Assembly: GCF_024166365.1 (NCBI RefSeq) | Contig: NC_064843.1 | Location: 61,590,532 to 61,654,531, forward strand | Direction of reading: 5' to 3' | Source of the DNA: Elephas maximus indicus | Lineage: Eukaryota > Chordata > Mammalia > Proboscidea > Elephantidae | DNA: 64,000 nucleotides | Shown here: positions 1,098-64,000 of the stretch, piece by piece | Layout of the letters: the number at the start of each line of letters is the position of its first letter | How positions within the stretch are numbered: position 1 is the stretch's first letter | Program-made: the position numbers and the translations under genes | Notes under the pieces: model-generated | Databases searched by the model: none | What the model saw: the letters and a program-made list of their open reading frames with translations, nothing else | Told to the model about the DNA's origin: nothing

Positions 1098-1108
1098 CTT
1101 TTAGTTTT

Positions 1109-29287: not shown

Positions 29288-32200
29288 TTCTGAAAACGCG
29301 CCTGCATACAGTGCTGAAAAAGCACCTGTATACACTGCTGAAATGTGCCCATATACTGTGCAGAAAACGCGCCTGTATACATACAGTGCTGAAAACATCT
29401 GTATACACTGCCGACAACGCACCCGCGTACACTGCCGACAACGCGCCCGCGTACACTGCCGAAAACGCGCCCGCGTACGGTGCCGAAAACGCGCACCTAT
29501 ACACTGCCCAAAACTCGTCCCTATACACTGCCGAAAACGCGGCCCATACACTGTCAAAAACGCGCCCGCATACACTGCCGAAAACGCACCCCTATACGCT
29601 GCCGAAAACGTGCCCGCATACACTGCCGAAAACGCACCCCTATACACTGCCGAAAACGTGCCCACATACACTGCCGAAAACGCACCCCTATACGCTGCCG
29701 AAAACGTGCCCGCATACACTGCCGAAAACGCACCCCTATACACTGCCGAAAACGCGCCCCTATACACTGCCAAAAACGTGCCCGCATACACTGCCGAAAA
29801 CGCACCCCTATACGCTGCCGAAAACGTGCCCGCATACACTGCCGAAAACACACCCCTATACACTGCCGAAAACGTGCCCGCATACACTGCCGAAAACGCA
29901 CCCCTATACGCTGCCGAAAACGTGCCCGCATACACTGCCGAAAACGCACCCCTATACACTGCCGAAAACGCGCCCCTATACACTGCCGAAAACGCGCCCC
30001 GATACACTGCCGAAAACGCGCACCTATACACTGCCGAAAATGCGCCCCTATACACTGCCGAAAACGCGCCCCTATACACTGCCGAAAACGTGCCCGCATA
30101 CACTGCCGAAAACGCACCCCTATACACTGCCGAAAACGCGCCCCTATACACTGCCGAAAACGCGCCCCGATACACTGCCGAAAACGCGCCCCTATACACT
30201 GCCGAAAACGTGCCTGCATACACTGCCCAAAACTCGTCCCTATACACTGCCGAAAACGCGGCCCATACACTGCCGAAAACGCGCCTGCATACACTGCCGA
30301 AAACGCACCCCTATATGCTGCCGAAAACGCGCCCGCATACACTGCCGAAAACGCACCCCTATACACTGCCGAAAACGTGCACCTATACACTGCCGAAAAC
30401 GCACCCCTATACACTGCCGAAAACGCGCCCCTATACACTGCCGAAAACGCGCCCCGATACACTGCCGAAACGCGCCCCTATACACTGCCGAAAACGCGCC
30501 CCTATACACTGCCGAAAACGCGCCCCTATACACTGCCGAAAACGTGCCTGCATACACTGCCCAAAACTCGTCCCTATACACTGCCGAAAACGCGGCCCAT
30601 ACACTGCCGAAAACGCGCCCGCATACACTGCCGAAAACGCACCCCTATACGCTGCCGAAAACGCGCCCGCATACACTGCCGAAAACGCACCCCTATACAC
30701 TGCCGAAAACGTGCACCTATACACTGCCGAAAACGCACCCCTATACACTGCCGAAAACGCACCCCTATACACTGCCGAAAACGTGCCCGCATACACTGCC
30801 GAAAACGCACCCCTATACACTGCCGAAAACGTGCCCGCATACACTGCCGAAAACGCACCCCTATACACTGCCGAAAACGTGCCCGCATACACTGCCGAAA
30901 ACGCACCCCTATACACTGCCGAAAACGCACCCCTATACACTGCCGAAAACGTGCCTGCATACACTGCCCAAAACTCGTCCCTATACACTGCCGAAAACGC
31001 GGCCCATACACTGCCGAAAACGCGCCCGCATACACTGCCGAAAACGCACCCCTATACGCTGCCGAAAACGTGCCCGCATACACTGCCAAAAACGCGCCCC
31101 TATACACTGCCGAAAACGCGCCCCTATACACTGCCGAAAACATGCCCGCATACACTGCCGAAAACGCGCACCTATACACTGCCGAAAACATGCACGCATA
31201 CACTGCCGAAAAAGCACCCCTATACACGGCCGAAAACGTGCCCACATACACTGCCCAAAACTCGACCCCATACACTGCCGAAAACGCGGCCCATACACTG
31301 CCGAAAACACGCCCGCATACACTGCCGAAAACGCACCCCAATACGCTGCCGAAAACGTACCCGCATACACTGCCGAAAACGCACCCCTATACACTGCCGA
31401 AAACGCGCCCCTAGACACTGCCGAAAACGCGCCCCTATACACTGCCGAAAACGCGCCCCTATACACTGCCGAAAACGTGCCCACATACACTGCCCAAAAC
31501 TCGCCCCTATACACTGCCGAAAACGCGGCCCATACACTGCCGAAAACACGCCCGCATACACTGCCGAAAACGCACCCCAATACGCGGCCGAAAACGTACC
31601 CGCATACACTGCCGAAAACGCACCCCTATACACTGCCGAAAACGCGCCCGCATACACTGCCGAAAACGCGCACCTATATACTGCCGAAAACGCGCCCCTA
31701 GACACTGCCGAAAACGCGCCCCTATACACTGCCGAAAACGCGCCCCTATACACTGCCGAAAACGCGCCCCTATACACTGCCGAAAACGCGCCCCTATACA
31801 CTGCCGAAAACGCGCCCCTATACACTGCCGAAAACGCGCCCCTATACACTGCCGAAAACGCGCCCCTATACACTGCCGAAAACGCGCCCCTATACACTGC
31901 CGAAAACGTGCCCGCATACACTGCCGAAAACGCGCACCTATATACTGCCGAAAACGCGCCCCATACACTGCCGAAAACGCACCCCTATACACTGCCGAAA
32001 AGGCGCCCCTATACACTGCCGAAAACGTGCCCGCATACACTGCCGAAAACGCGCACCTATACACTGCCGAAAACGTGCCCGCATACACTGCCGAAAACGC
32101 GCACCTATACACTGCCGAAAACGTGCCCGCATACACTGCTGAAAACGCACCCCTATACACTGCTGAAAATGCGCCCGCATACACTGCCGAAAACGCGCAC

Positions 32201-32960
32201 CTATACACTGCCGAAAATGCGCCCGCATACACTGCCGAAAACATGCCCGCATACACTGCTGAAAACGCACCCCTATACACTGCCGAAAATGCGCCCGCAT
32301 ACACTGCCGAAAACGTGCACCTATACACTGCCGAAAACATGCCCGCATACACTGCCGAAAACGCGCCCCTATACACTGCCGAAAACGCGCCCGTATACAC
32401 TGCCGAAAACGCGCCCCTATACACTGCCGAAAACTTGCCCGCATACACTGCTGAAAACGCACCCCTATACACTGCTGAAAATGCGCCCGCATACACTGCC
32501 GAAAACGCGCACCTATACACTGCCGAAAACGCGCCCCTATACACTGCCGAAAACGTGCCCGCATACACTGCCGAAAACGCGCACCTATACACTGCTGAAA
32601 ACGTGCCCGCACACACTGCCGAAAACACGCCCCTATACACTGCCGAAAACGTGCACCTATACACTGCTGAAAACGCACCCCTATACACTGCTGAAAATGC
32701 GCCCGCATACACTGCCGAAAACGCGCAACTATACACTGCCGAAAACTTGCCCGCATACACTGCCGAAAGCGCGCCCCTATACACTGCCGAAAACATGCCC
32801 CTATACACTGCTGAAAACGCACCCCTATACACTGCTGAAAATGCGCCCGCATACACTGCCGAAAGCGCGCCCACGTAAAGTGCTGAAAACGTGCCCGCAT
32901 ACACTGCCGAAATGTGCCTGTATACAGTGCAGAAAATGCACCCCTATACACTGCTGAAAA
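29288..32960. repeat. 24-bp CpG-rich satellite block (block B), about 150 units
   Basis: A typical unit is 31758-31781: GAAAACGCGCCCC, then TATACACTGCC. Each standard unit holds three CpGs. Units are 24 bp, so the three plus frames give three different octapeptide repeats (AENAPLYT, PKTRPYTL, RKRAPIHC), and a 23-bp variant unit switches frame. This explains plus frames of up to 1,204 codons and minus frames of up to 465. The first units (29288-29412) are irregular, about 22 to 28 bp, and some resemble the next block. Low-complexity readings, absence of introns or a domain, and openness on both strands argue against a gene. Confidence 0.95.
29538..31530. repeat. Higher-order repeats within block B
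   Basis: A private 23-bp variant unit containing CGCGGCCCA recurs at 29538, 30257, 30591, 30998, 31285 and 31524. Spacings are 719, 334, 407, 287 and 239 bp. Four of the five equal n x 24 + 23 (n = 29, 16, 11, 9). The 334 spacing equals 13 x 24 + 22 and contains one further unit missing a base near 30468. Each marker is preceded by a CCCAAAACTCG unit, so a two- to three-unit cassette has been copied together. Confidence 0.85.
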
Positions 32961-35900
32961 CACACCCATATACAGGGCTGAAATGTGCCTGTACACAGTG
33001 TTGAAATGTGCCTCTATACAGGGCTGAAATGTGCCTGTAGACAGTGCTGAAATGGGCCTGTACACAGGGCTGAAACGTGCCTGTAGACAGTGATGAAACG
33101 TGCCTGTAGACAGTGCTGAAACGTGCCTGTAGACAGTGTGAAATGTGCCTGTAGACCGTGCTGAAATGTGCCTGTAGACAGTGCTCAAATGGGCCTGTAG
33201 ACAGTGCTGAAATGGGCCTGTAGACAGTGCTGAAATGTGCCTGTAGACCGTGCTGAAATGTGCCTGTACACAGTGCTGAAATGTGCCTGTAGACAGTGCT
33301 GAAATGTGCCTGTAGACAGTGCTGAAATGGGCCTGTAGACAGTGCTGAAATGTGCCTGTAGACCGTGCTGAAATGTGCCTGTACACAGGGCTGAAACGTG
33401 CCTGTAGACAGTGCGGAAATGTGCCTGTAGACAGTGCTGAAATGTGCCTGTAGACCGTGCTGAACTGTGCCTGTACACAGGGCTGAAACGTGCCTGTAGA
33501 CAGTGCGGAAATGTGCCTGTAGACAGTGCTGAAATGTGCCTATAGACAGTACTGAAATGTGCCTGTAGACCGTGCGGAAATGTGCCTGTACACAGGGCTG
33601 AAACGTGCCTGTAGACAGTGCGGAAATGTGCCTGTAGACAGTGCTGAAATGTGCCTGTAGACAGTGCTGAAATGTGCCTGTAGACCGTGCTGAAATGTGC
33701 CTGTACACAGGGCTGAAATGTGCCTGTAGACAGTGCGGAAATGTGCCTGTAGACAGTGCTGAAATGCGCCTGTAGACAGTGCTGAAAAAGTGCCTGCATA
33801 TATCGCTGAAGTGTGCCTGTAGACCGTGCTGAAATGTGCCTGTAGACAGGGCTGAAATGTGCCTGTAGACAGTGCTGAAATGGGCCTGTAGACAGTGCTG
33901 AAATGGGCGTATAGACAGTGCTGAAATGTGCCTGTAGACCGTGCTGAAATGTGCCTGTAGACAGGGCTGAAATGGGCCTGTAGACAGTGCTGAAATGGGC
34001 GTATAGACAGTGCTGAAATGTGCCTGTAGACCGTGCTGAAATGTGCCTGTACACAGGGCTGAAATGTGCCTGTAGACAGTGCTGAAATGTGCCTGTAGAC
34101 CGTGCTGAAACGTGCCTGCATACAGTGCTGAAATGGGCCTGTAGACCGTGCTGAAACGTGCCTGTAGACAGTGCGGAAATGTGCCTGTAGACAGTGCTAA
34201 ATGTGCCTATAGACAGTACTGAAATGTGCCTGTAGACCGTGCGAAAATGTGCCTGTACACAGGGCTGAAACGTGCCTGTAGACAGTGCGGAAATGTGCCT
34301 GTAGACAGTGCTGAAATGTGCCTGTAGACAGTGCTGAAATGTGCCTGTAGACCGTGCTGAAATGTGCCTGTAGACAGTGCTGAAATGGGCCTGTAGACAG
34401 TGCTGAAATGTGCCTGTAGACAGTGCTGAAACGTGCCTGCATACAGTGCTGAAATGGGCCTGTAGACCGTGCTGAAACGTGCCTGTAGACAGTGCGGAAA
34501 TGTGCCTGTAGACAGTGCTGAAATGTGCCTGTAGACCGTGCTGAAATGTGCCTGTACACAGGGCTGAAATGTGCCTGTAGACAGTGCGGAAATGTGCCTG
34601 TAGACAGTGCTGAAATGCGCCTGTAGACAGTGCTGAAAAAGTGCCTGCATATATCGCTGAAGTGTGCCTGTAGACCGTGCTGAAATGTGCCTGTAGACAG
34701 GGCTGAAATGGGCCTGTAGACAGTGCTGAAATGGGCGTATAGACAGTGCTGAAATGAGCCTGTAGACCGTGCTGAAATGTGCCTGTAGACAGTGCTGAAA
34801 TGTGCCTGTAGACCGTGCTGAAATGTGCCTGTACACAGGGCTGAAATGGGCCTGCATACAGTGCTGAAATGTGCCTGCAGACAGTGCTGAAATGGGCCTG
34901 TAGACAGTGCTGAAAACGTGCCTGCATATAGTGCTGAAGTGTGCCTGTATAGAGGGCTGAAATGTGCCTGCAGACAGTGCTGAAATGGGCCTGTAGACCG
35001 TGCTGAAATGTGCCTGTAGACAGTGCTGAAATGGGCCTGTAGACAGTGCTGAAATGGGCCTGTAGACAGTGCTGAAATGGGCCTGTAGACCGTGCTGAAA
35101 TGTGCCTGTAGACAGTGCTGAAATGGGCCTGTAGACAGTGCTGAAACGGGCCTGTAGACAGGGCTGAAATGTGCCTGTAGACAGTGCTGAAACGTGCCTG
35201 CAGACAGTGCTGAAACGTGCCTGCAGACAGTGCTGAAACGTGCCTGCAGACAGTGCTGAAATGGGCCTCTAGACAGTGCTGAAATGGGCCTGTAGACAGT
35301 GCTGAAATGGGCCTGTAGACAGTGCTGAAATGGGACTGCATACAGGGCTGAAATGTGCCTGTACACAGTGCTGAAATGGGCCTGTAGACCGTGCTGAAAC
35401 GTGCCTGTAGACAGTGCGGAAATGTGCCTGTAGACAGTGCTGAAATGTGCCTGTAGACCGTGCTGAAATGTGCCTGTACACAGGGCTGAAATGTGCCTGT
35501 AGACAGTGCGGAAATGTGCCTGTAGACAGTGCTGAAATGCGCCTGTAGACAGTGCTGAAAAAGTGCCTGCATATATCGCTGAAGTGTGCCTGTAGACCGT
35601 GCTGAAATGTGCCTGTAGACAGGGCTGAAATGGGCCTGTAGACAGTGCTGAAATGGGCGTATAGACAGTGCTGAAATGAGCCTGTAGACCGTGCTGAAAT
35701 GTGCCTGTAGACAGTGCTGAAATGTGCCTGTAGACCGTGCTGAAATGTGCCTGTACACAGGGCTGAAATGGGCCTGCATACAGTGCTGAAATGTGCCTGC
35801 AGACAGTGCTGAAATGGGCCTGTAGACAGTGCTGAAAACGTGCCTGCATATAGTGCTGAAGTGTGCCTGTATAGAGGGCTGAAATGTGCCTGCAGACAGT

Positions 35901-38900
35901 GCTGAAATGGGCCTGTAGACCGTGCTGAAATGTGCCTGTAGACAGTGCTGAAATGGGCCTGTAGACAGTGCTGAAATGGGCCTGTAGACAGTGCTGAAAT
36001 GGGCCTGTAGACCGTGCTGAAATGTGCCTGTAGACAGTGCTGAAATGGGCCTGTAGACAGTGCTGAAACGGGCCTGTAGACAGGCCTGAAATGTGCCTGT
36101 AGACAGTGCTGAAACGTGCCTGCAGACAGTGCTGAAACGTGCCTGCAGACAGTGCTGAAACGTGCCTGCAGACAGTGCTGAAATGGGCCTCTAGACAGTG
36201 CTGAAATGGGCCTGTAGACAGTGCTGAAATGGGCCTGTAGACAGTGCTGAAATGGGACTGCATACAGGGCTGAAATGTGCCTGTACACAGTGCTGAAATG
36301 GGCCTGTAGACAGTGCTGAAAACGTGCCTGCATATAGTGCTGAAACGTGCCTGTAGACAGTGCTGAAACGTGCCTGCATACAGTGCTGAAACTGGCCTGT
36401 AGACAGTGCTGAAATGGGCCTATAGACCGTGCTGAAATGTGCCTGTACACACTGCTGAAATGTGCCTGTAGAAAGTGCTGAAATGTGCCTGTAGACCGTG
36501 CTGAAACGTGCCTGTAGACAGTGCTGAAATGCGCCTGTAGACAGTGCTGAAATGCGCCTGTAGACAGTGCTGAAATGCGCCTGTAGACAGTGCTGAAATG
36601 AGCCTGTAGACAGTGCTGAAATGCGCCTGTAGACAGTGCTGAAACATGCCTGCATACAGTGCTGAAACGTGCCTGTACACAGTGCTGAAATGTGCCTGTA
36701 TACAGGGCTGAAATGTGCCTGTAGACAGTGCTGAAATGGGCCTGTAGACAGTGCTGAAATGCGCCTGTAGACAGTGCTGAAAACGTGCCTGCATATAGTG
36801 CTGAAGTGTGCCTGTATACAGGGCTGAAATGTGCCTGTAGACAGTGCTGAAATGCGCCTGTAGAAAGGGCTGAAATGGGCCTGTAGACAGTGCTGAAATG
36901 GGCCTGTAGACAGTGCTGAAATGTGCCTGTAGACCGTGCTGAAATGTGCCTGTACACAGGGCTGAAATGGGCCTGTAGACAGTGCTGAAATGGGCCTGTA
37001 GACCGTGCTGAAATGTGCCTGTAGAAAGGGCTGAAAAGGGCCTGTAGACAGTGCTGAAATGGGCCTGTAGACAGTGCTGAAGTGTGCCTGTAGACCGTGC
37101 TAAAATGTGCCTGTAGAAAGGGCTGAAATGGGCCTGTAAACAGTGCTGAAATGGGCCTGTAGACAGTGCTGAAATGTGCCTGTAGACCGTGCTGAAATGT
37201 GCCTGTACACAGGGCTGAAATGGGCCTGTAGACAGTGCTGAAATGTGCCTGTAGACAGTGCTGAAATGTGCCTGTAGACAGTGCTGAAATGGGCCTGTAG
37301 ACAGTGCTTAAATGGGCCTGTAGACAGTGCTGAAATGGGCCTGCATACAGTGCTGAAATGTGCCTGCACACAGTGCTGAAATGGGCCTGTAGACAGTGCT
37401 GAAAACGTGCCTGCATATAGTGCTGAAGTGTGCCTGTATACAGGGCTGAAATGTGCCTGCAGACAGTGCTGAAATGGGCCTGTAGACCGTGCTGAAATGT
37501 GCCTGTAGACAGTGCTGAAATGGGCCTGTAGACACTGCTGAAATGGGCTTGTAGACACTGCTGAAATGGGCCTGTAGACCGTGCTGAAACGTGCCTGTAG
37601 ACAGTACTGAAACGGGCCTGTAGACAGTGCTGAAACGGGCCTGTAGACAGTGCTGAAACGTGCCTGTAGACAGGGCTGAAACGTGCCTGTAGACAGTGCT
37701 GAAACGTTCCTGCAGACAGTGCTGAAACGGGCCTGTAGACAGTGCTGAAATGGGCCTGTAGACAGTGCTGAAATGGGCCTGTAGACAGTGCTGAAAACGT
37801 GCCTGCATATAGTGCTGAAGTGTGCCTGTAGACAGGGCTGAAACGTGCCTGTAGACAGTGCTGAAACGTGCCTGCATACAGTGCTGAAACGGGCCTGTAG
37901 ACAGTGCTGAAATGGGCCTGTAGACAGTGCTGAAACGTGCCTGTAGACTGGGCTGAAACGTGCCTGTAGACAGTGCTGAAAAGTGCCTGCAGACAGTGCT
38001 GAAACGGGCCTGTAGACAGTGCTGAAATGGGCCTGTAGACAGTGCTGAAACGGGCCTGTAGACAGTGCTGAAATGGGCCTGTAGACAGTGCTGAAATGGG
38101 CCTGTAGACAGTGCTGAAATGGGCCTGTAGACAGGGCTGAAACGTGCCTGTAGACAGTGCTGAAACGAGCCTGCATACAGTGCTGAAACGGGCCTGTAGA
38201 CCGTGCTGAAATGGGCCTGTAGACCGTGCTGAAATGGGCCTGTAGACCGTGCTGAAATGGTCCCGTAGACAGTGCTGAAGTGTGCCTGTAGACAGTGCTG
38301 AAATGTGCCTGTAGACAGTGCTGAAACGTGCCTGCAGACAGTGCTGAAACGTGCCTGCAGACAGTGCAGAAACGTGCCTGCAGACAGTGCTGAAACGTGC
38401 CTGCAGACAGTGCTGAAACGTGCCTGCAGACAGTGCTGAAATGGGCCTCTAGACAGTGCTGAAATGGGCCTGTAGACAGTGCTGAAATGGGCCTGTAGAC
38501 AGTGCTGAAATGGGCCTGTAGACAGTGCTGAAATGGGCCTGCATACAGGGCTTAAATGTGCCTGTACACAGTGCTGAAATGTGCCTGTACACAGTGCTGA
38601 AATGGGCCTGTAGACAGTGCTGAAATGGGCCTGCATACAGGGCTGAAATGCGCCTGTACACAGTGCTGAAATGTGCCTGTACACAGTGGTGAAATGGGCC
38701 TGTACACAGTGGTGAAATGGGCCTGTAGACAGTGCTGAAACGTGCCTGTAGACAGTGCTGAAACGTGCCTGTAGACAGTGCTGAAACGTGCCTGCAGACA
38801 GTGCTGAAACGTGCCTGCAGACAGTGCTGAAACGTGCCTGCAGACAGTGCTGAAATGGGCCTGTAGACAGTGCTGAAATGGGCGTGTAGACAGTGCTGAA

Positions 38901-41430
38901 ATGGGCCTGGATACAGGGCTGAAATGGGCCTGGATACAGGGCTGAAATGGGCCTGTACACAGTGCTGAAATGGGCCTGTACACAGTGGTGAAATGGGCCT
39001 GTACACAGTGGTGAAATGGGCCTGTAGACAGTGCTGAAACGTGCCTGTAGACCGTGCTGAAATGTGCGTGCATACAGTGCTGAAATGCGCCTGTAGACAG
39101 TGCTGAAACGTGCCTGTAGACCGTGCTGAAACGAGCCTGTAGACAGTGCTGAAATGCGCCTGTAGACAGTGCTGAAATGTGCCTGTAGACAGTGCTGAAA
39201 TGCGCCTATAGACAGTGCTGAAATGGGCCTGTAGACAGTGCTGAAATGCGCCTGTAGACAGTGCTGAAAACGTGCCTGCATATAGTGCTGAAGTGTGCCT
39301 GTATACAGGGCTGAAACGTGCCTGTAGACAGGGCTGAAACGTGCCTGTAGACAGTGCTGAAACGTGCCTGCAGACAGTGCTGAAACGGGCCTGTAGACAG
39401 TGCTGAAATGGGCCTGTAGACAGTGCTGAAATGGGCCTGTAGACAGTGCTGAAAACGTGCCTGCATATAGTGCTGAAGTGTGCCTGTAGACAGGGCTGAA
39501 ACGTGCCTGTAGACAGTGCTGAAACGTGCCTGCATACAGTGCTGAAACGGGCCTGTAGACAGTGCTGAAATGGGCCTGTAGACAGTGCTGAAACGTGCCT
39601 GTAGACTGGGCTGAAACGTGCCTGTAGACAGTGCTGAAACGTGCCTGCAGACAGTGCTGAAACGGGCCTGTAGACAGTGCTGAAATGGGCCTGTAGACAG
39701 TGCTGAAATGGGCCTGTAGACAGTGCTGAAAACGTGCCTGCATATAGTGCTGAAGTGTGCCTGTAGACAGGGCTGAAACGTGCCTGTAGACAGTGCTGAA
39801 ACGTGCCTGCATACAGTGCTGAAACGGGCCTGTAGACAGTGCTGAAAAGGGCCCGTAGACCGTGCTGAAATGGGCCCGTAGACCGTGCTGAAATGGGCCC
39901 GTAGACAGTGCTGAAATGGGCCTGTAGACAGTGCTGAAACGTGCCTGTAGACAGTGCTGGAAACGTGCCTGCATATAGTGCTGAAGTGTGCCTGTAGACA
40001 GTGCTGAAATGGGCCTCTAGACAGTGCTGAAATGGGCCTGTAGACAGTGCTGAAATGGGCCTGTAGACAGTGCTGAAATGGGCCTGCATACAGGGCTGAA
40101 ATGTGCCTGTATACAGTGCTGAAATGTGCCTGTACACAGTGCTGAAATGGGCCTGTAGACAGTGCTGAAATGGGCCTGCATACAGGGCTGAAATGCGCCT
40201 GTACACAGTGCTGAAATGTGCCTGTACACAGTGGTGAAATGGGCCTGTACACAGTGGTGAAATGGGCCTGTAGACAGTGCTGAAATGTGCCTGTAGACAG
40301 TGCTGAAATGTGCCTGTAGACCGTGCTGAAACGTGCCTGCAGACAGTGCTGAAACGTGCCTGCAGACAGTGCTGAAATGGGCCTGTAGACAGTGCTGAAA
40401 TGGGCCTGCATACAGGGCTGAAATGTGCCTGTACACAGTGCTGAAATGGGCCTGTACACAGTGGTGAAATGGGCTTGTACACAGTGGTGAAATGGGCCTG
40501 TAGACAGTGCTGAAACGTGCCTGTAGACAGGGCTGAAATGTGCCTGTAGACAGTGCTGAAATGGGCCTGTAGACAGTGCTGAAATGTGCCTATAGACCGT
40601 GCTGAAATGGGCCTGTACACAGTGCTGAAATGCGCCTGTAGACAGTGCTGAAACGTGCCTGTAGACCGTGCTGAAACGTGCCTGTAGACAGTGCTGAAAT
40701 GCGCCTGTAGACAGTGCTGAAATGTGCCTGTAGACAGTGCTGAAACGTGCCTGTACACAGTGCTGAAATGTGCGTGTATACAGGGCTGAAATGCGCCTGT
40801 AGACAGTGCTGAAATGCGCCCGTAGACAGTGCTGAAATGCGCCTGTAGACAGTGCTCAAAACGTGCCTGCATATAGTGCTGAAGTGTGCCTGTATACAGG
40901 GCTGAAATGGGCCTGTAGACAGTGCTGAAATGGGCCTGTAGACAGTGCTGAAATGCGCCTGTAGACAGTGCTGAAATGGGCCTGTAGACAGTGCTGAAAT
41001 GGGCCTGTAGACAGTGCTGAAATGGGCCTGTAGACCATGGTGAAATGTGCCTGTAGACAGTGCTGAAATGCGCCTGTAGACAGTGCTGAAATGTGCCTGT
41101 AGACAGTGCTGAAATGGGCCTGTAGACAGTGCTGAAATGCGCCTGTAGACAGTGCTGAAAACGTGCCTGCATATATTGCTGAAGTGTGCCTGTAGACCGT
41201 GCTGAAATGTGCCTGTAGACAGGGCTGAAATGGGCCTGTAGACAGTGCTGAAATGGGCCTGTAGACAGTGCTGAAATGGGCCTGTAGACCGTGCTGAAAT
41301 GTGCCTGTAGACAGTGCTGAAATGTGCCTGTAGACAGTGCTGAAATGTGCCTGTACAGAGGGCTGAAATGGGCCTGTAGACAGTGCTGAAATGCGCCTGT
41401 AGACAGTGCTGAAATGCGCCTGTAGACAGT

Positions 41431-42122
41431 GCTGTAAACGTGCCTGCATATATCGCTGAAGTGTGCCTGTAGACCGTGCTGAAATGTGCCTGTAGACAGG
41501 GCTGAAATGGGCCTGTAGACAGTGCTGAAATGGGACTGTAGACAGTGCTGAAATGTGCCTGCAGACCGTGCTGAAATGTGCCTGTACACAGGGCTGAAAT
41601 GGGCCTGTAGACAGTGCTGAAATGGGCCTGTAGACCGTGCTGAAATGTGCCTGTAGACAGTGCTGAAATGTGCCTGTAGACAGTGCTGAAATGTGCCTGT
41701 ACAGAGGGCTGAAATGGGCCTGTAGACAGTGCTGAAATGCGCCTGTAGACAGTGCTGAAATGCGCCTGTAGACAGTGCTGTAAACGTGCCTGCATATATC
41801 GCTGAAGTGTGCCTGTAGACCGTGCTGAAATGTGCCTGTAGACAGGGCTGAAATGGGCCTGTAGACAGTGCTGAAATGGGACTGTAGACAGTGCTGAAAT
41901 GTGCCTGCAGACCGTGCTGAAATGTGCCTGTACACAGGGCTGAAATGGGCCTGTAGACAGTGCTGAAATGGGCCTGTACACAGTGCTGAAATGTGCCTGT
42001 AGACAGTGCGGAAATGTGCCTGTAGACCGTGCTGAAATGTGCCTGTACACAGGGCTGAAATGGGCCTGTAGACAGTGCTGAAATGCGCCTGTAGACCGTG
42101 CTGAAATGTCCTGTAGACCGTG
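41431..42122. repeat. 346-bp higher-order unit, first doublet
   Basis: The private string GCTGTAAACG starts at 41431 and 41777, 346 bp apart, which equals fourteen 23-bp units plus one 24-bp unit. The following units are copied in the same order (GCATATATCGCTG, AAATGGGACTGTAG, TGCAGACCGTG). Confidence 0.85.
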
Positions 42123-48200: not shown

Positions 48201-48240
48201 AGTGCTGAAACGTGCCTGTAGACAGGGCTGAAATGTGCCT
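45204..48240. repeat. Internal duplication, copy 1 (partner about 54351-57410, offset 9,147 to 9,170 bp)
   Basis: GACCATGGTG at 45847/54994 gives 9,147. GCCTGTAGAG at 46761/55931, CCCCTGTAGA at 46921/56091, GAAACGGGACTG at about 47053/56223, GCTGAATTGT at 47421/56591 and ACAGTGCAGA at 47831/57001 all give 9,170. The shift of 23 is one monomer. Identity breaks near 48240. Confidence 0.88.
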
Positions 48241-48341
48241 GTATACAGTGCTGAAATGTGCCTGTACAGAGGGCTGAAATGGGCCTGTAGACAGTGCTGA
48301 AATGCGCCTGTAGACAGTGCTGAAATGCGCCTGTAGACAGT

Positions 48342-51290: not shown

Positions 51291-51982
51291 GCTGTAAACG
51301 TGCCTGCATATATCGCTGAAGTGTGCCTGTAGACCGTGCTGAAATGTGCCTGTAGACAGGGCTGAAATGGGCCTGTAGACAGTGCTGAAATGGGACTGTA
51401 GACAGTGCTGAAATGTGCCTGCAGACCGTGCTGAAATGTGCCTGTACACAGGGCTGAAATGGGCCTGTAGACAGTGCTGAAATGGGCCTGTAGACCGTGC
51501 TGAAATGTGCCTGTAGACAGTGCTGAAATGTGCCTGTAGACAGTGCTGAAATGTGCCTGTACAGAGGGCTGAAATGGGCCTGTAGACAGTGCTGAAATGC
51601 GCCTGTAGACAGTGCTGAAATGCGCCTGTAGACAGTGCTGTAAACGTGCCTGCATATATCGCTGAAGTGTGCCTGTAGACCGTGCTGAAATGTGCCTGTA
51701 GACAGGGCTGAAATGGGCCTGTAGACAGTGCTGAAATGGGACTGTAGACAGTGCTGAAATGTGCCTGCAGACCGTGCTGAAATGTGCCTGTACACAGGGC
51801 TGAAATGGGCCTGTAGACAGTGCTGAAATGGGCCTGAACACAGTGCTGAAATGTGCCTGTAGACAGTGCGGAAATGTGCCTGTAGACCGTGCTGAAATGT
51901 GCCTGTACACAGGGCTGAAATGGGCCTGTAGACAGTGCTGAAATGCGCCTGTAGACCGTGCTGAAATGTGCCTGTAGACCGT
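51291..51982. repeat. 346-bp higher-order unit, third doublet
   Basis: GCTGTAAACG at 51291 and 51637, exactly 7,742 bp after the second doublet. Confidence 0.85.
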
Positions 51983-52946
51983 GCTGAAATGTGTCTGTAC
52001 ACAGGGCTGAAATGGGCCTGTAGACAGTGCTGAAATGCACGTGTAGACAGTGCTGAAATGTGCCTGTAGACCGTGCTGAAATGTGCCTGTACACAGGGCT
52101 GAAATGGGCCTGTAGACAGTGCTGAAATGGGCCTGTAGACAGTGCTGAAATGGGCCTGTAGACAGTGCTGAAATGGGCCTGTAGACAGTGCTGAAATGGG
52201 CCTGTACACAGTGCTGAAATGGGCCTGTAGACAGTGCTGAAATGGGCCTGCATACAGTGCTGAAATGTGCCTGTACACAGTGCTGAAATGGGCCTGTAGA
52301 CAGTGCTGAAAACGTGCCTGCATATAGTGCTGAAGTGTGCCTGTATACAGGGCTGAAATGTGCCTGTATACAGGGCTGAAATGTGCCTGCAGACAGTGCT
52401 GAAACGGGCCTGTAGACAGTGCTGAAATGGGCCTGTAGACAGTGCTGAAATGGGCCTGTAGACCGTGCTGAAATGTGCCTGTAGACAGTGCTGAAATGGG
52501 CCTGTAGACAGTGCTGAAATGGGCCTGTAGACAGTGCTGAAACGGGCCTGTAGACAGGGCTGAAATGGGCCTGTAGACAGTGCTGAAATGGGCCTGTAGA
52601 CAGTGCTGAAATGGGCCTGTAGACCGTGCTGAAATGTGCCTGTAGACAGTGCTGAAATGGGCCTGTAGACAGTGCTGAAATGGGCCTGTAGACCGTGCTG
52701 AAATGTGCCTGTAGACAGTGCTGAAATGGGCCTGTAGACAGGGCTGAAACGGGCCTGTAGACAGGGCTGAAACGTGCCTGTAGACAGGGCTGAAACGTGC
52801 CTGTAGACAGTGCTGAAACGTGCCTGTAGACAGTGCTGAAATGGGCCTGTAGACAGTGCTGAAATGGGCCTGTAGACAGTGCTGAAATGGGCCTGCATAC
52901 AGGGCTGAAATGTGCCTGTACACAGTGCTGAAATGGGCCTGTACAC
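51291..52946. repeat. Internal duplication, copy 2 (partner 43549-45204)
   Basis: See partner. The earlier related doublet at 41.4 kb lacks CCTGAACACA (it reads CCTGTACACA near 41983), so this pair is the more recent relationship. Confidence 0.85.
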
Positions 52947-54350
52947 AGTGGTGAAATGGGCCTGTACACAGTGGTGAAATGGGCCTGTAGACAGTGCTGA
53001 AACGTGCCTGTAGACAGGGCTGAAATGTGCCTGTAGACAGTGCTGAAATGGGCCTGTAGACAGTGCTGAAATGTGCCTATAGACCGTGCTGAAATGGGCC
53101 TGTACACAGTGCTGAAATGCGCCTGTAGACAGTGCTGAAACGTGCCTGTAGACCGTGCTGAAACGTGCCTGTAGACAGTGCTGAAATGCGCCTGTAGACA
53201 GTGCTGAAATGTGCCTGTAGACCGTGCTGAAATGCGCCTGTAGACAGTGCTGAAATGGGCCTGTAGACAGTGCTGAAATGTGCCTGTAGACAGTGCTGAA
53301 ACGTGCCTGTACACAGTGCTGAAATGTGCGTGTATACAGGGCTGAAATGCGCCTGTAGACAGTGCTGAAATGCGCCCGTAGACACTGCTGAAATGCGCCT
53401 GTAGACAGTGCTCAAAACGTGCCTGCATATAGTGCTGAAGTGTGCCTGTATACAGGGCTGAAATGGGCCTGTAGACAGTGCTGAAATGGGCCTGTAGACA
53501 GTGCTGAAATGCGCCTGTAGACAGTGCTGAAATGGGCCTGTAGACAGTGCTGAAATGGGCCTGTAGACAGTGCTGAAATGGGCCTGTAGACAGTGCTGAA
53601 ATGGGCCTGTACACAGTGCTGAAATGGGCCTGTAGACAGTGCTGAAATGGGCCTGCATACAGTGCTGAAATGTGCCTGTACACAGTGCTGAAATGGGCCT
53701 GTAGACAGTGCTGAAAACGTGCCTGCATATAGTGCTGAAGTGTGCCTGTATACAGGGCTGAAATGTGCCTGTATACAGGGCTGAAATGTGCCTGCAGACA
53801 GTGCTGAAACGGGCCTGTAGACAGTGCTGAAATGGGCCTGTAGACAGTGCTGAAATGGGCCTGTAGACCGTGCTGAAATGTGCCTGTAGACAGTGCTGAA
53901 ATGGGCCTGTAGACAGTGCTGAAATGGGCCTGTAGACAGTGCTGAAACGGGCCTGTAGACAGGGCTGAAATGGGCCTGCAGACAGTGCTGAAATGGGCCT
54001 GTAGACAGTGCTGAAATGGGCCTGTAGACCGTGCTGAAATGTGCCTGTAGACAGTGCTGAAATGGGCCTGTAGACAGTGCTGAAATGGGCCTGTAGACCG
54101 TGCTGAAATGTGCCTGTAGACAGTGCTGAAACGGGCCTGTAGACAGTGCTGAAACGGGCCTGTAGACAGGGCTGAAACGTGCCTGTAGACAGGGCTGAAA
54201 CGTGCCTGTAGACAGTGCTGAAACGTGCCTGTAGACAGTGCTGAAATGGGCCTGTAGACAGTGCTGAAATGGGCCTGTAGACAGTGCTGAAATGGGCCTG
54301 CATACAGGGCTGAAATGTGCCTGTACACAGTGCTGAAATGGGCCTGTACA

Positions 54351-57300
54351 CAGTGGTGAAATGGGCCTGTACACAGTGGTGAAATGGGCCTGTTGACAGT
54401 GCTGAAACGTGCCTGTAGACAGGGCTGAAATGTGCCTGTAGACAGTGCTGAAATGGGCCTGTAGACAGTGCTGAAATGTGCCTATAGACCGTGCTGAAAT
54501 GGGCCTGTACACAGTGCTGAAATGCGCCTGTAGACAGTGCTGAAACGTGCCTGTAGACCGTGCTGAAACGTGCCTGTAGACAGTGCTGAAATGCGCCTGT
54601 AGACAGTGCTGAAATGTGCCTGTAGACCGTGCTGAAATGCGCCTGTAGACAGTGCTGAAATGGGCCTGTAGACAGTGCTGAAATGTGCCTGTAGACAGTG
54701 CTGAAACGTGCCTGTACACAGTGGTGAAATGTGCGTGTATACAGGGCTGAAATGCGCCTGTAGACAGTGCTGAAATGCGCCCGTAGACACTGCTGAAATG
54801 CGCCTGTAGACAGTGCTCAAAACGTGCCTGCATATAGTGCTGAAGTGTGCCTGTATACAGGGCTGAAATGGGCCTGTAGACAGTGCTGAAATGGGCCTGT
54901 AGACAGTGCTGAAATGCGCCTGTAGACAGTGCTGAAATGGGCCTGTAGACAGTGCTGAAATGGGCCTGTAGACAGTGCTGAAATGGGCCTGTAGACCATG
55001 GTGAAATGTGCCTGTAGACAGTGCTGAAATGCGCCTGTAGACAGTGCTGAAATGTGCCTGTAGACAGTGCTGAAATGGGCCTGTAGACAGTGCTGAAATG
55101 CGCCTGTAGACAGTGCTGAAAACGTGCCTGCATATATTGCTGAAGTGTGCCTGTAGACCGTGCTGAAATGTGCCTGTAGACAGGGCTGAAATGGGCCTGT
55201 AGACAGTGCTGAAATGGGCCTGTAGACAGTGCTGAAATGTGCCTGTAGACCGTGCTGAAATGTGCCTGTACACAGGGCTGAAATGGGCCTGTAGACAGTG
55301 CTGAAATGGGCCTGTAGACCGTGCTGAAATGTGCCTGTAGACAGTGCTGAAATGTGCCTGTAGACAGTGCTGAAATGTGCCTGTAGACAGTGCTGAAATG
55401 GGCCTGCATACAGGGCTTAAATGTGCCTGTACACAGTGCTGAAATGTGCCTGTACACAGTGCTGAAATGGGCCTGTAGACAGTGCTGAAATGGGCCTGCA
55501 TACAGGGCTGAAATGCGCCTGTACACAGTGCTGAAATGTGCCTGTACACAGTGGTGAAATGGGCCTGTACACAGTGGTGAAATGGGCCTGTAGACAGTGC
55601 TGAAATGTGCCTGTAGACAGTGCTGAAATGTGCCTGTAGACAGTGCTGAAACGTGCCTGCAGACAGTGCTGAAACGTGCCTGCAGACAGTGCTGAAACGT
55701 GCCTGCAGACAGTGCTGAAATGGGCCTGTAGACAGTGCTGAAATGGGCGTGTAGACAGTGCTGAAATGGGCCTGGATACAGGGCTGAAATGGGCCTGTAC
55801 ACAGTGCTGAAATGGGCCGGTACACAGTGGTGAAATGGGCCTGTACACAGTGGTGAAATGGGCCTGTAGACAGTGCTGAAACGTGCCTGTAGACCGTGCT
55901 GAAATGTGCGTGCATACAGTGCTGAAATGCGCCTGTAGAGAGTGCTGAAACGTGCCTGTAGACCGTGCTGAAACGAGCCTGTAGACAGTGCTGAAATGCG
56001 CCTGTAGACAGTGCTGAAATGTGCCTGTAGACAGTGCTGAAATGCGCCTGTAGACAGTGCTGAAATGGGCCTGTAGACAGTGCTGAAATGCCCCTGTAGA
56101 CAGTGCTGAAAACGTGCCTGCATATAGTGCTGAAGTGTGCCTGTATACAGGGCTGAAACGTGCCTGTAGACAGGGCTGAAACGTGCCTGTAGACAGTGCT
56201 GAAACGTGCCTGCAGACAGTGCTGAAACGGGACTGTAGACAGTGCTGAAATGGGCCTGTAGACAGTGCTGAAATGGGCCTGTAGACAGTGCTGAAAACGT
56301 GCCTGCATATAGTGCTGAAGTGTGCCTGTAGACAGGGCTGAAACGTGCCTGTAGACAGTGCTGAAACGTGCCTGCATACAGTGCTGAAACGGGCCTGTAG
56401 ACAGTGCTGAAATGGGCCTGTAGACAGTGCTGAAACGTGCCTGTAGACTGGGCTGAAACGTGCCTGTAGACAGTGCTGAAACGTGCCTGCAGACAGTGCT
56501 GAAACGGGCCTGTAGACAGTGCTGAAATGGGCCTGTAGACAGTGCTGAAATGGGCCTGTAGACAGTGCTGAAAACGTGCCTGCATATAGTGCTGAATTGT
56601 GCCTGTAGACAGGGCTGAAACGTGCCTGTAGACAGTGCTGAAACGTGCCTGCATACAGTGCTGAAACGGGCCTGTAGACAGTGCTGAAATGGGCCTGTAG
56701 ACCGTGCTGAAATGGGCCCGTAGACCGTGCTGAAATGGGCCCGTAGACAGTGCTGAAATGGGCCTGTAGACAGTGCTGAAACGTGCCTGTAGACAGTGCT
56801 GGAAACGTGCCTGCATATAGTGCTGAAGTGTGCCTGTAGACAGTGCTGAAATGGGCCTCTAGACAGTGCTGAAATGGGCCTGTAGACAGTGCTGAAATGG
56901 GCCTGTAGACAGTGCTGAAATGGGCCTGCATACAGGGCTGAAATGTGCCTGTATACAGTGCTGAAATGTGCCTGTACACAGTGCTGAAATGGGCCTGTAG
57001 ACAGTGCAGAAATGGGCCTGCATACAGGGCTGAAATGCGCCTGTACACAGTGCTGAAATGTGCCTGTACACAGTGGTGAAATGGGCCTGTACACAGTGGT
57101 GAAATGGGCCTGTAGACAGTGCTGAAATGTGCCTGTAGACAGTGCTGAAATGTGCCTGTAGACAGTGCTGAAACGTGCCTGCAGACAGTGCTGAAACGTG
57201 CCTGCAGACAGTGCTGAAACGGGCCTGTAGACAGTGCTGAAATGGGCCTGTAGACAGTGCTGAAATGGGCCTGCATACAGGGCTGAAATGTGCCTGTACA

Positions 57301-57410
57301 CAGTGCTGAAATGGGCCTGTACACAGTGGTAAAATGGGCCTGTACACAGTGGTGAAATGGGCCTGTAGACAGTGCTGAAACGTGCCTGTAGACAGGGCTG
57401 AAATGTGCCT
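54351..57410. repeat. Internal duplication, copy 2 (partner 45204-48240)
   Basis: See partner. Part of this copy (56591-57440) is duplicated again at 61293-62119 with offset 4,702, dropping to 4,679 after loss of one monomer. Confidence 0.88.
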
Positions 57411-58341
57411 GTAGACAGTGCTGAAATGGGCCTGTAAACAGTGCTGAAATGTGCCTATAGACCGTGCTGAAATGGGCCTGTACACAGTGCTGAAATGCGC
57501 CTGTAGACAGTGCTGAAATGCGCCTGTAGACAGTGCTGAAATGTGCCTGTAGACCGTGCTGAAATGCGCCTGTAGACAGTGCTGAAATGGGCCTGTAGAC
57601 AGTGCTGAAATGTGCCTGTAGACAGTGCTGAAACGTGCCTGTACACAGTGCTGAAATGTGCGTGTATACAGGGCTGAAATGCGCCTGTAGACAGTGCTGA
57701 AAGGGGCCTGTAGACAGTGCTGAAATGCGCCTGTAGACAGTGCTCAAAACGTGCCTGCATATAGTGCTGAAGTGTGCCTGTATACAGGGCTGAAATGGGC
57801 CTGTAGACAGTGCTGAAAGGGGCCTGTAGACAGTGCTGAAATGCGCCTGTAGACAGTGCTGAAATGGGCCTGTAGACAGTGCTGAAATGGGCCTGTAGAC
57901 AGTGCTGAAATGGGCCTGTAGACCATGGTGAAATGTGCCTGTAGACAGTGCTGAAATGCGCCTGTAGACAGTGCTGAAATGTGCCTGTAGACAGTGCTGA
58001 AATGGGCCTGTAGACAGTGCTGAAATGCGCCTGTAGACAGTGCTGAAAACGTGCCTGCATATATCGCTGAAGTGTGCCTGTAGACCGTGCTGAAATGTGC
58101 CTGTAGACAGGGCTGAAATGGGCCTGTAGACAGTGCTGAAATGTGCCTGTAGACCGTGCTGAAATGTGCCTGTACACAGGGCTGAAATGGGCCTGTAGAC
58201 AGTGCTGAAATGGGCCTGTAGACCGTGCTGAAATGTGCCTGTAGACAGTGCTGAAATGTGCCTGTACAGAGGGCTGAAATGGGCCTGTAGACAGTGCTGA
58301 AATGCGCCTGTAGACAGTGCTGAAATGCGCCTGTAGACAGT

Positions 58342-59033
58342 GCTGTAAACGTGCCTGCATATATCGCTGAAGTGTGCCTGTAGACCGTGCTGAAATGTGC
58401 CTGTAGACAGGGCTGAAATGGGCCTGTAGACAGTGCTGAAATGGGACTGTAGACAGTGCTGAAATGTGCCTGCAGACCGTGCTGAAATGTGCCTGTACAC
58501 AGGGCTGAAATGGGCCTGTAGACAGTGCTGAAATGGGCCTGTAGACCGTGCTGAAATGTGCCTGTAGACAGTGCTGAAATGTGCCTGTATACAGTGCTGA
58601 AATGTGCCTGTACAGAGGGCTGAAATGGGCCTGTAGACAGTGCTGAAATGCGCCTGTAGACAGTGCTGAAATGCGCCTGTAGACAGTGCTGTAAACGTGC
58701 CTGCATATATCGCTGAAGTGTGCCTGTAGACCGTGCTGAAATGTGCCTGTAGACAGGGCTGAAATGGGCCTGTAGACAGTGCTGAAATGGGACTGTAGAC
58801 AGTGCTGAAATGTGCCTGCAGACCGTGCTGAAATGTGCCTGTACACAGGGCTGAAATGGGCCTGTAGACAGTGCTGAAATGTGCCTGTAGACAGTGCGGA
58901 AATGTGCCTGTAGACCGTGCAGAAATGTGCCTGTACACAGGGCTGAAATGGGCCTGTAGACAGTGCTGAAATGCGCCTGTAGACCGTGCTGAAATGTGCC
59001 TGTAGACTGTGCTGAAATGTGTCTGTACACAGG
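58342..59033. repeat. 346-bp higher-order unit, fourth doublet
   Basis: GCTGTAAACG at 58342 and 58688. Single occurrences of the same marker lie at 48342 and 62560. Confidence 0.85.
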
Positions 59034-60726
59034 GCTGAAATGGGCCTGTAGACAGTGCTGAAATGCACGTGTAGACAGTGCTGAAATGTGCCTGTAGACC
59101 GTGCTGAAATGTGCCTGTACACAGGGCTGAAATGGGCCTGTAGACAGTGCTGAAATGGGCCTGTAGACAGTGCTGAAATGGGCCTGTAGACAGTGCTGAA
59201 ATGGGCCTGTAGACAGTGCTGAAATGGGCCTGTACACAGTGCTGAAATGGGCCTGTAGACAGTGCTGAAATGGGCGTGCATACAGTGCTGAAATGTGCCT
59301 GTACACAGTGCTGAAATGGGCCTGTAGACAGTGCTGAAAACGTGCCTGCATATAGTGCTGAAGTGTGCCTGTATACAGGGCTGAAATGTGCCTGTATACA
59401 GGGCTGAAATGTGCCTGCAGACAGTGCTGAAACGGGCCTGTAGACAGTGCTGAAATGGGCCTGTAGACAGTGCTGAAATGGGCCTGTAGACCGTGCTGAA
59501 ATGTGCCTGTAGACAGTGCTGAAATGGGCCTGTAGACAGTGCTGAAATGGGCCTGTAGACAGTGCTGAAACGGGCCTGTAGACAGGGCTGAAATGGGCCT
59601 GTAGACAGTGCTGAAATGGGCCTGTAGACAGTGCTGAAATGGGCCTGTAGACCGTGCTGAAATGTGCCTGTAGACAGTGCTGAAATGGGCCTGTAGACAG
59701 TGCTGAAATGGGCCTGTAGACAGTGCTGAAATGGGCCTGTAGACCGTGCTGAAATGTGCCTGTAGACAGTGCTGAAATGGGCCTGTAGACAGTGCTGAAA
59801 CGGGCCTGTAGACAGGGCTGAAACGTGCCTGTAGACAGGGCTGAAACGTGCCTGTAGACAGTGCTGAAACGTGCCTGTAGACAGTGCTGAAATGGGCCTG
59901 TAGACAGTGCTGAAATGGGCCTGTAGACAGTGCTGAAAACGTGCCTGCATATAGTGCTGAAGTGTGCCTGTAGACAGGGCTGAAAAGTGCCTGTAGACAG
60001 TGCTGAAACGTGCCTGCAGACAGTGCTGAAATGGGCCTCTAGACAGTGCTGAAATGGGCCTGTAGACAGTGCTGAAATGGGCCTGTAGACAGTGCTGAAA
60101 TGGGCCTGCATACAGGGCTTAAATATGCCTGTACACAGTGCTGAAATGTGCCTGTACACAGTGCTGAAATGGGCCTGTAGACAGTGCTGAAATGGGCCTG
60201 CATACAGGGCTGAAATGCGCCTGTACACAGTGCTGAAATGTGCCTGTACACAGTGGTGAAATGGGCCTGTACACAGTGGTGAAATGGGCCTGTAGACAGT
60301 GCTGAAATGTGCCTGTAGACAGTGCTGAAATGTGCCTGTAGACAGTGCTGAAACGTGCCTGCAGACAGTGCTGAAACGTGCCTGCAGACAGTGCTGAAAC
60401 GTGCCTGCAGACAGTGCTGAAATGGGCCTGTAGACAGTGCTGAAATGGGCGTGTAGACAGTGCTGAAATGGGCCTGGATACAGGGCTGAAATGGGCCTGT
60501 ACACAGTGCTGAAATGGGCCTGTACACAGTGGTGAAATGGGCCTGTACACAGTGGTGAAATGGGCCTGTAGACAGTGCTGAAACGTGCCTGTAGACCGTG
60601 CTGAAATGTGCGTGCATACAGTGCTGAAATGCGCCTGTAGACAGTGCTGAAACGTGCCTGTAGACCGTGCTGAAACGAGCCTGTAGACAGTGCTGAAATG
60701 CGCCTGTAGACAGTGCTGAAATCTGC
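58688..60726. repeat. Internal duplication, copy 2 (partner 48342-50380)
   Basis: See partner. It adjoins the copy of another source segment, so neighbouring source blocks were copied with different offsets. Confidence 0.87.
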
Positions 60727-61292
60727 CTGTAGACAGTGCTGAAATGCGCCTGTAAACAGTGCTGAAATGGGCCTGTAGACAGTGCTGAAATGCGCCTGTA
60801 GACAGTGCTGAAAACGTGCCTGCATATAGTGCTGAAGTGTGCCTGTATACAGGGCTGAAACGTGCCTGTAGACAGGGCTGAAACGTGCCTGCAGACAGTG
60901 CTGAAACGTGCCTGCAGACAGTGCTGAAACGGGCCTGTAGACAGTGCTGAAATGGGCCTGTAGACAGTGCTGAAATGGGCCTGTAGACAGTGCTGAAAAC
61001 GTGCCTGCATATAGTGCTGAAGTGTGCCTGTAGACAGGGCTGAAACGTGCCTGTAGACAGTGCTGAAACGTGCCTGCATACAGTGCTGAAACGGGCCTGT
61101 AGACAGTGCTGAAATGGGCCTGTAGACAGTGCTGAAACGTGCCTGTATACTGGGCTGAAACGTGCCTGTAGACAGTGCTGAAACGTGCCTGCAGACAGTG
61201 CTGAAACGGGCCTGTAGACAGTGCTGAAATGGGCCTGTAGACAGTGCTGAAATGGGCCTGTAGACAGTGCTGAAAACGTGCCTGCATATAGT

Positions 61293-62119
61293 GCTGAATT
61301 GTGCCTGTAGACAGGGCTGAAACGTGCCTGTAGACAGTGCTGAAACGTGCCTGCATACAGTGCTGAAACGGGCCTGTAGACAGTGCTGAAATGGGCCTGT
61401 AGACCGTGCTGAAATGGGCCCGTAGACCGTGCTGAAATGGGCCCGTAGACAGTGCTGAAATGGGCCTGTAGACAGTGCTGAAACGTGCCTGTAGACAGTG
61501 CTGGAAACGTGCCTGCATATAGTGCTGAAGTGTGCCTGTAGACAGTGCTGAAATGGGCCTCTAGACAGTGCTGAAATGGGCCTGTAGACAGTGCTGAAAT
61601 GGGCCTGTAGACAGTGCTGAAATGGGCCTGCATACAGGGCTGAAATGTGCCTGTATACAGTGCTGAAATGTGCCTGTACACAGTGCTGAAATGGGCCTGT
61701 AGACAGTGCTGAAATGGGCCTGCATACAGGGCTGAAATGCGCGTGTACACAGTGCTGAAATGTGCCTGTACACAGTGGTGAAATGGGCCTGTACACAGTG
61801 GTGAAATGGGCCTGTAGACAGTGCTGAAATGTGCCTGTAGACAGTGCTGAAATGTGCCTGTAGACAGTGCTGAAACGTGCCTGCAGACAGTGCTGAAACG
61901 TGCCTGCAGACAGTGCTGAAACGGGCCTGTAGACAGTGCTGAAATGGGCCTGTAGACAGTGCTGAAATGGGCCTGCATACAGGGCTGAAATGTGCCTGTA
62001 CACAGTGCTGAAATGGGCCTGTACACAGTGGTGAAATGGGCCTGTAGACAGTGCTGAAACGTGCCTGTAGACAGGGCTGAAATGTGCCTGTAGACAGTGC
62101 TGAAATGGGCCTGTAAACA
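61293..62119. repeat. Internal duplication of 56591-57440 (offset 4,702 then 4,679 bp)
   Basis: GCTGAATTGT at 56591/61293 and TGTAAACA at 57433/62112. One CACAGTGGTG-bearing monomer present twice near 57307-57350 is single near 62027. Confidence 0.85.
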
Positions 62120-64000
62120 GTGCTGAAATGTGCCTATAGACCGTGCTGAAATGGGCCTGTACACAGTGCTGAAATGCGCCTGTAGACAGTGCTGAAAACG
62201 TGCCTGCATATATTGCTGAAGTGTGCCTGTAGACCGTGCTGAAATGTGCCTGTAGACAGGGCTGAAATGGGCCTGTAGACAGTGCTGAAATGGGCTTGTA
62301 GACAGTGCTGAAATGTGCCTGTAGACCGTGCTGAAATGTGCCTGTACACAGGGCTGAAATGGGCCTGTAGACAGTGCTGAAATGGGCCTGTAGACCGTGC
62401 TGAAATGTGCCTGTAGACAGTGCTGAAATGTGCCTGTAGACAGTGCTGAAATGTGCCTGTACAGAGGGCTGAAATGGGCCTGTAGACAGTGCTGAAATGC
62501 GCCTGTAGACAGTGCTGAAATGCGCCTGTAGACAGTGCTGAAATGCGCCTGTAGACAGTGCTGTAAACGTGCCTGCATATATCACTGAAGTGTGCCTGTA
62601 GACCGTGCTGAAATGTGCCTGTAGACAGGGCTGAAATGGGCCTGTAGACAGTGCTGAAATGGGACTGTAGACAGTGCTGAAATGTGCCTGCAGACCGTGC
62701 TGAAATGTGCCTGTACACAGGGCTGAAATGGGCCTGTAGACAGTGCTGAAATGGGCCTGTAGACCGTGCTGAAATGTGCCTGTAGACAGTGCGGAAATGT
62801 GCCTGTAGACCGTGCTGAAATGTGCCTGTACACAGGGCTGAAATGGGCCTGTAGACAGTGCTGAAATGCGCCTGTAGACCGTGCTGAAATGTGCCTGTAG
62901 ACCGTGCTGAAATGTGTCTGTACACAGGGCTGAAATGGGCCTGTAGACAGTGCTGAAATGCGCGTGTAGACAGTGCTGAAATGTGCCTGTAGACCGTGCT
63001 GAAATGTGCCTGTACACAGTGCTGAAATGGGCCTGTAGACAGTGCTGAAATGGGCCTGTAGACAGTGCTGAAATGGGCCTGTAGACAGTGCTGAAATGGG
63101 CCTGTACACAGTGCTGAAATGGGCCTGTAGACAGTGCTGAAATGGGCCTGCATACAGTGCTGAAATGTGCCTGTACACAGTGCTGAAATGGGCCTGTAGA
63201 CAGTGCTGAAAACGTGCCTGCATATAGTGCTGAAGTGTGCCTGTATACAGGGCTGAAATGTGCCTGTATACAGGGCTGAAATGTGCCTGCAGACAGTGCT
63301 AAAACGGGCCTGTAGACAGTGCTGAAATGGGCCTGTAGACAGTGCTGAAATGGGCCTGTAGACCGTGCTGAAATGTGCCTGTAGACAGTGCTGAAATGGG
63401 CCTGTAGACAGTGCTGAAATGGGCCTGTAGACAGTGCTGAAACGGGCCTGTAGACAGTGCTGAAATGGGCCTGTAGACAGTGCTGAAATGGGCCTGTAGA
63501 CCGTGCTGAAATGTGCCTGTAGACAGTGCTGAAATGGGCCTGTAGACAGTGCTGAAATGGGCCTGTAGACAGTGCTGAAATGGGCCTGTAGACAGTGCTG
63601 AAATGGGCCTGTAGACCGTGCTGAAATGTGCCTGTAGACAGTGCTGAAATGGGCCTGTAGACAGTGCTGAAATGGGCCTGTAGACAGTGCTGAAATGGGC
63701 CTGTAGACAGTGCTGAAATGGGCCTGTACACAGTGCTGAAATGGGCCTGTAGACAGTGCTGAAATGGGCCTGCATACAGTGCTGAAATGTGCCTGTACAC
63801 AGTGCTGAAATGGGCCTGTAGACAGTGCTGAAAACGTGCCTGCATATAGTGCTGAAGTGTGCCTGTATACAGGGCTGAAATGTGCCTGTATACAGGGCTG
63901 AAATGTGCCTGCAGACAGTGCTAAAACGGGCCTGTAGACAGTGCTGAAATGGGCCTGTAGACAGTGCTGAAATGGGCCTGTAGACCGTGCTGAAATGTGC

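Follow-up and report, generated by a model that had tools for sequence, protein, structure and literature searches.

The stretch of Asian elephant (Elephas maximus indicus) DNA analysed here (64,000 nt; contig NC_064843.1, positions 61,590,532–61,654,531; hereafter the window) raises the question of what kind of tandem array fills more than half of it, and how a single array came to hold two different repeat units. Unit decomposition, which was started at position 29288, yielded 1,500 tandem units, mostly of 23–24 bp, between 29,288 and 63,987. Position 63,987 closes the last complete unit, but the array itself continues beyond the window end, so its length is at least 34.7 kb. We consider it probable that this array is a non-coding minisatellite of the variable number of tandem repeats (VNTR) type without a selected function, and that unequal exchange together with gene conversion made it grow and kept its units alike. 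The evidence comes from the tiling of the units, the mixed units at the borders of the two blocks, large duplications within the second block and the pattern of CpG changes in the first.

Two unit families in one array

Tandem Repeats Finder (TRF) reported a 24-bp based unit at 29292–32974, for which it gives periods of 48 and 72, as well as a period of 23 at 32879–64000 (1350.7 copies, 89% matches). The tiling of 1,500 units contains no gaps between units, and the units are close to their own consensus, with none below 70% identity and 68 of the 1,500 below 80%. The first block, B (29288..32975, plus strand), is CpG-rich, is built of 24-bp units TGCCGAAAACGCGCCCCTATACAC and takes in the mixed left edge of the array and most of the junction with the second block. 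Its 152 units, assigned as nearest to B, comprise 142 of 24 bp, eight of 23, one of 22 and one of 28. The second block, C (32976..64000, plus strand), consists of 23-bp units TGCTGAAATGKGCCTGTAGACAG and extends beyond the window end; its 1,348 units nearest to C include 1,288 of 23 bp, 57 of 24 and three of 22. The number of distinct unit strings is 55 among the 152 units of B and 136 among the 1,348 of C. The unit core occurs in the array 1,193 times as GCTGAAA and 125 times as GCCGAAA, while neither reverse complement occurs at all; because all 1,318 occurrences face the same way, the array has a single orientation throughout. A 19-base segment taken from the C unit was found 596 times in the window and never in 100 dinucleotide-preserving shuffles, which excludes a chance origin of the C repeat. 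Since the longest unit measures 28 bp, no transposable element interrupts the 34.7 kb. The preliminary description of this DNA, made from the sequence alone, had proposed an uninterrupted array no shorter than 34.7 kb, with a block of 24-bp units followed by one of 23-bp units that runs past the window end, adjoining ordinary DNA on its left; the analysis bears this out. The GC skew changes sign between the blocks, from −0.41 at 30001–32000 in B to about +0.21 to +0.25 at 34001–64000 in C.

Block B is traversed by an open frame of 1,228 codons (29271–32957), which could be taken to mean that it is a coding repeat. Long frames in B are automatic, because the 24-bp unit has no stop in any of the three forward frames. 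Moreover, 10 of the 152 B units have a length that is not divisible by three and break the frame, and the encoded repeat shifts register along the 1,228 codons. We give a coding role of block B next to no credence.

The consensus units are TGCCGAAAACGCGCCCCTATACAC for B and TGCTGAAATGTGCCTGTAGACAG for C, the latter also occurring in a form with GGGCC in place of GTGCC. They are separated by 8 edits, a distance that was equalled by 10 of 1,000 shuffles of C when all rotations and both strands were considered, so that the shuffles lend modest support to a relation between the two. Mixed units are found at both ends of block B. At the left edge (first five units, 29288..29408, plus strand), units such as TTCTGAAAACGCGCCTGCATACAG resemble B in their first half and C in their second. 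An intermediate unit was assembled by eye from these left-edge units, after the edge had been inspected; four of the first five units are nearest to it, and one is nearest to C. The B/C junction (approximately 32857..32998, plus strand) is a mixed zone with no sharp line, in which B-like, C-like and mixed units alternate. Mixed units of this sort, present at the left edge as well as at the junction, speak for a shared origin of B and C. The kinship of the two families that had been proposed is thus supported, with the mixed units as stronger evidence for it than the 8-edit consensus distance. Units nearest to the intermediate also occur within C, where 58 of them (57 of 24 bp) are dispersed over 33780–63826. 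Many of these 58 units end in TGCATATAG.

Folding of the units was compared with shuffled sequences. Trimers of B and C folded no better than shuffles on either strand (z-scores of −0.17, 0.91, −0.08 and −0.29). The composed intermediate unit folded better (z = −2.24, with 5 of 200 shuffles as good), and the palindrome CTGTATACAG contributes to this fold. We place no weight on this result, because the palindrome occurs 36 times in the window and most units lack it.

Divergence, duplication and probable CpG decay

If the border of an array joins less in unequal exchange than the interior does, it should retain old differences, and the trend from edge to interior is as predicted. The mean number of edits to the B consensus is 5.75 for the first eight units versus 1.89 for units 9–140. 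Counted in bins of 100 units from the left, one-off units number 23, 20, 3, 19 and 5, and from 40.9 kb onward there are 0–4 per bin. The bin at 36338–38641, which has more uniform stretches on both sides, is possibly an older domain.

Block C also has a structure above the level of the unit, which was absent from the preliminary description, in the form of multi-kilobase duplications. Exact repeats of at least 500 bp cover 51% of the array past its first 4 kb, whereas this initial part contains none. In C, exact repeats reach 1,746 bp, and 20 random reorderings of the C units never gave one above 140 bp; in B the longest measures 183 bp, with an offset of one unit. This difference indicates that C has recently been rearranged in large pieces and B has not. 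The largest duplication consists of two neighbouring copies of one block on the plus strand, at 41247..51100 (428 units) and 51100..61000 (429 units), both with approximate limits. Their alignment comprises 374 units, of which 348 are identical, and contains 31 changes in 8,616 bases (0.36%); it is also broken by nine gaps, each of which spans between 1 and 51 whole units. The unit-alignment score was 291, as compared with −197 to −203 in all five shuffled controls, in which 70–112 units were aligned. Large mammals accumulate 1–2 × 10^-9 substitutions per site and year, and at that rate a divergence of 0.36% would, as a rough estimate, correspond to one to two million years. A smaller duplication within C (34443..36084, plus strand) has 720 bases that recur without a mismatch at a lag of 922. 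No regular higher-order period was found in C, as the best average lags (distances of 0.102 at 398 units and 0.103 at 336 units, with 0.105 for neighbouring units) lie barely below random pairs (0.117).

Near-identical blocks of 1–2 kb are typical failure points of assemblers, and the window derives from a single assembly, so assembly error might account for the array as a whole or for the duplications within C. Between the two 10-kb copies there are 31 changes and several gains and losses of whole units, unlike the product of a plain copying error, and both the border to ordinary DNA and the mixed units at the edge appear natural. An artefact is therefore very unlikely.

The observed/expected ratio of CpG amounts to 1.6 for B and 0.315 for C, and two stretches of the flank give 0.225–0.328; TpG+CpA stands at 1.82 in C. 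Among the 142 full-length B units, transitions were found in 110 of 852 CpG cells versus 14 of 1,136 other C/G cells, which is an approximately tenfold difference. When each of 50 distinct units was counted once, the corresponding numbers were 48 of 300 and 8 of 400. CA and TG are equally frequent at the third CpG of the B unit (36 and 35 of 142 units, respectively), which points to deamination of methylated CpG on both strands. On this evidence B would carry germline methylation and would not be a protected CpG island. None of the three CpGs of B is present in the C consensus, and this absence fits deamination followed by spread of the altered unit.

Nature of the array

Under the reading that we favour, out-of-register exchange between sister chromatids or homologues, together with gene conversion, would have repeatedly duplicated runs of units. 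Repetition of such exchange would produce a uniform interior and leave older variants at the border. B and C would each have been fixed by a separate wave of homogenisation from a common earlier type, and germline methylation followed by deamination would convert the CpGs of B to TpG and CpA. In the Smith model, as presented in a review, unequal crossover builds arrays of this kind, and nothing in the array points to a new mechanism. The human Y-chromosomal minisatellite MSY1 likewise contains blocks of differing unit types within one array, and in its mutants shifts of block boundaries and conversion of units were observed directly (PMC2599865). The studied MSY1 allele has 77 repeats, in contrast to at least 1,500 units here.

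Several observations weigh against this reading or parts of it. The intermediate unit is a mixture of B and C, so the distances obtained with it (4 to B, 4 to C and 8 between B and C) are built in, and only 1 of the 13 junction units is nearest to it. Because of this count and the post hoc composition of the intermediate, a common earlier type stays a matter of inference. The gradient of one-off units is uneven, with 3 per 100 at 34.0 kb followed by 19 per 100 at 36338–38641, and a single border, the left one, is visible in the window. CpG changes account for only three of the seven substitutions between the consensus units, the other four not being CpG changes, and the CpG counts do not represent independent events, because unit variants are shared by descent. 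As regards the duplications, the block limits were picked after the exact repeats were known, and the pattern is not that of one clean duplication: the best lags switch among 336, 397, 398, 428 and 449 units, and parts of the duplicated block match better elsewhere. Finally, all results come from one assembly, in which errors inside C are possible.

The array shares two features of minisatellites and VNTRs. Its units lie head to tail and fall within roughly 10–100 bp, and on the left it is bounded by 29.3 kb of DNA that is ordinary apart from a 30-bp VNTR. As to length, a review gives the mean length of minisatellites as 0.5–30 kb, and the array measures at least 34.7 kb. Eight human locus-specific VNTRs longer than 10 kb (Warburton et al. 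2008, PMC2588610, Table 1) have units of 20, 28, 34, 36, 38, 38, 40 and 42 bp and span 10.5–52.9 kb, and three of them are marked as having higher-order repeats. They resemble the elephant array in unit size and in range of length. They come from another species, two unit families per array are not described for them in the available text, and the likeness concerns unit size and array length. By this analogy, the array probably belongs to a kind already known from human chromosomes. A restriction to one or a few loci would be likelier than presence on many chromosomes.

Length alone does not decide between a satellite family and a locus-specific VNTR, because the human VNTRs reach 52.9 kb. Alternatively, the window might hold the margin of a heterochromatic satellite that is spread over the chromosomes of this lineage, at pericentromeric or subtelomeric sites, with the 34.7 kb as its outermost part. 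The array passes the window end and becomes more uniform away from its border, as would be seen at the rim of a large satellite, and a survey of centromere repeats excluded units under 50 bp. The left 29.3 kb, however, are ordinary DNA, the published elephant and manatee satellites considered here have far longer units, and the CENP-B box is absent from the array at up to one mismatch (two near matches in the window both lie outside it). We regard this alternative as possible but unlikely. More doubtful still is the proposal that the array represents a major undescribed afrotherian satellite with 23–24 bp units on many chromosomes, in which two families would have replaced a common ancestor in separate waves and the CpGs of one block would be eroding under methylation. 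The present array would escape surveys that drop units under 50 bp.

Known satellites provide further points of comparison. HsatII is reported by TRF with units of 23 or 26 bp in arrays of tens of kilobases (PMC2588610), so the period of 23 is shared. Its base unit is a diverged GAATG, whereas the B and C consensus units contain neither GAATG nor CATTC, which sets the array apart from HsatII. The manatee centromeric satellite TMAsat (PMC8421680) also belongs to the afrotherian lineage; it has a 687-bp monomer and CENP-B-like motifs, in contrast to the 23–24 bp units without a CENP-B box described here. The Asian and savanna elephant satellite clones EMAM1 and LAFM1 (PMC9952010) are tandem elephant satellites too, but the clones, at ~2.6 kb, are much longer than the 23–24 bp units. 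The elephant satellite unit is believed to be 936 bp.

Searches of viral, bacterial and archaeal, phage and plasmid collections gave little, and because these do not contain mammalian genomes the results have little bearing on novelty. An exact 20-base piece of C matched no viral contig, and nothing in the phage or plasmid collections matched an 800-base stretch of C. The 20-base piece had one match in bacterial and archaeal genomes (257 billion bases, for which ~0.5 chance matches are expected), and no array was reported by TRF in the 8 kb examined there. A 19-base piece of B matched two viral contigs, once each. When pieces of the units were searched as text in one open-access collection of papers, two articles matched, each through one 12-base piece at one place; judging from their titles, one deals with a choroid-plexus pump and the other with a gastric-cancer protein. 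Among the matches listed for literature on elephants and their relatives, such a unit is not described in the titles or the starts of the abstracts, and in the available text of the Asian elephant genome paper tandem repeats appear only in the methods and in totals. No Rfam family matched the 64 kb at the gathering threshold.

A binding role was also considered, in which the array would serve as a platform through a resemblance of the C unit, on the minus strand, to the RE1 site of REST. The common C unit agrees with the RE1 consensus at 14 of 21 positions, equalled by 16 of 5,000 shuffles. This was one motif, selected post hoc, and the fit is weaker in the other form of C (13 of 21; 77 of 5,000 shuffles) and in B (11 of 21; 2,197 of 5,000), so a binding platform is extremely improbable.

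The locus offers a well-resolved border of a long array, in which an old-looking edge, a decaying CpG-rich block, a CpG-poor block and recent duplications of ~10 kb follow one another, and it can serve as a natural test case for the growth and homogenisation of tandem arrays.

The left flank

The flank contains a second tandem array (15690–17416, TRF) with a 30-bp unit in 58 copies (90% matches). Its kinship to C is unsupported, since the edit distance of 12 was reached by 53 of 300 shuffles. The presence of two large minisatellites less than 12 kb apart is a possible hint of a subtelomeric location. The flank also holds, at 4796, 23912 and 27086, three isolated near matches of 12 bases to two units of the telomere repeat (0.31 expected; none of 100 shuffles reached three), and a scan of the window found no run of TTAGGG near the array. 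Pfam searches of 5,001–29,290 (one of the three plus-strand frames and all three minus-strand frames) returned nothing above the cut-offs; three weak matches below them all fall inside the 30-bp VNTR.

Frames on the minus strand of 1–3000 resemble what we take to be broken reading frames of a long interspersed element (LINE-1). The segment 17490–17665 is presumably an element similar to short interspersed elements (SINEs) and of afrotherian type; no further copy was found in 1–29287 (E 1e-3), and pieces of it searched as literature text gave no match. ARAGORN, run with bacterial settings, placed a tRNA-Gly at 25123–25210 on the minus strand, which may be a false call. A candidate exon of 40 bases was noted by eye on the minus strand at 15218–15257, preceded by a pyrimidine tract and CAG and followed by GTAAGG.

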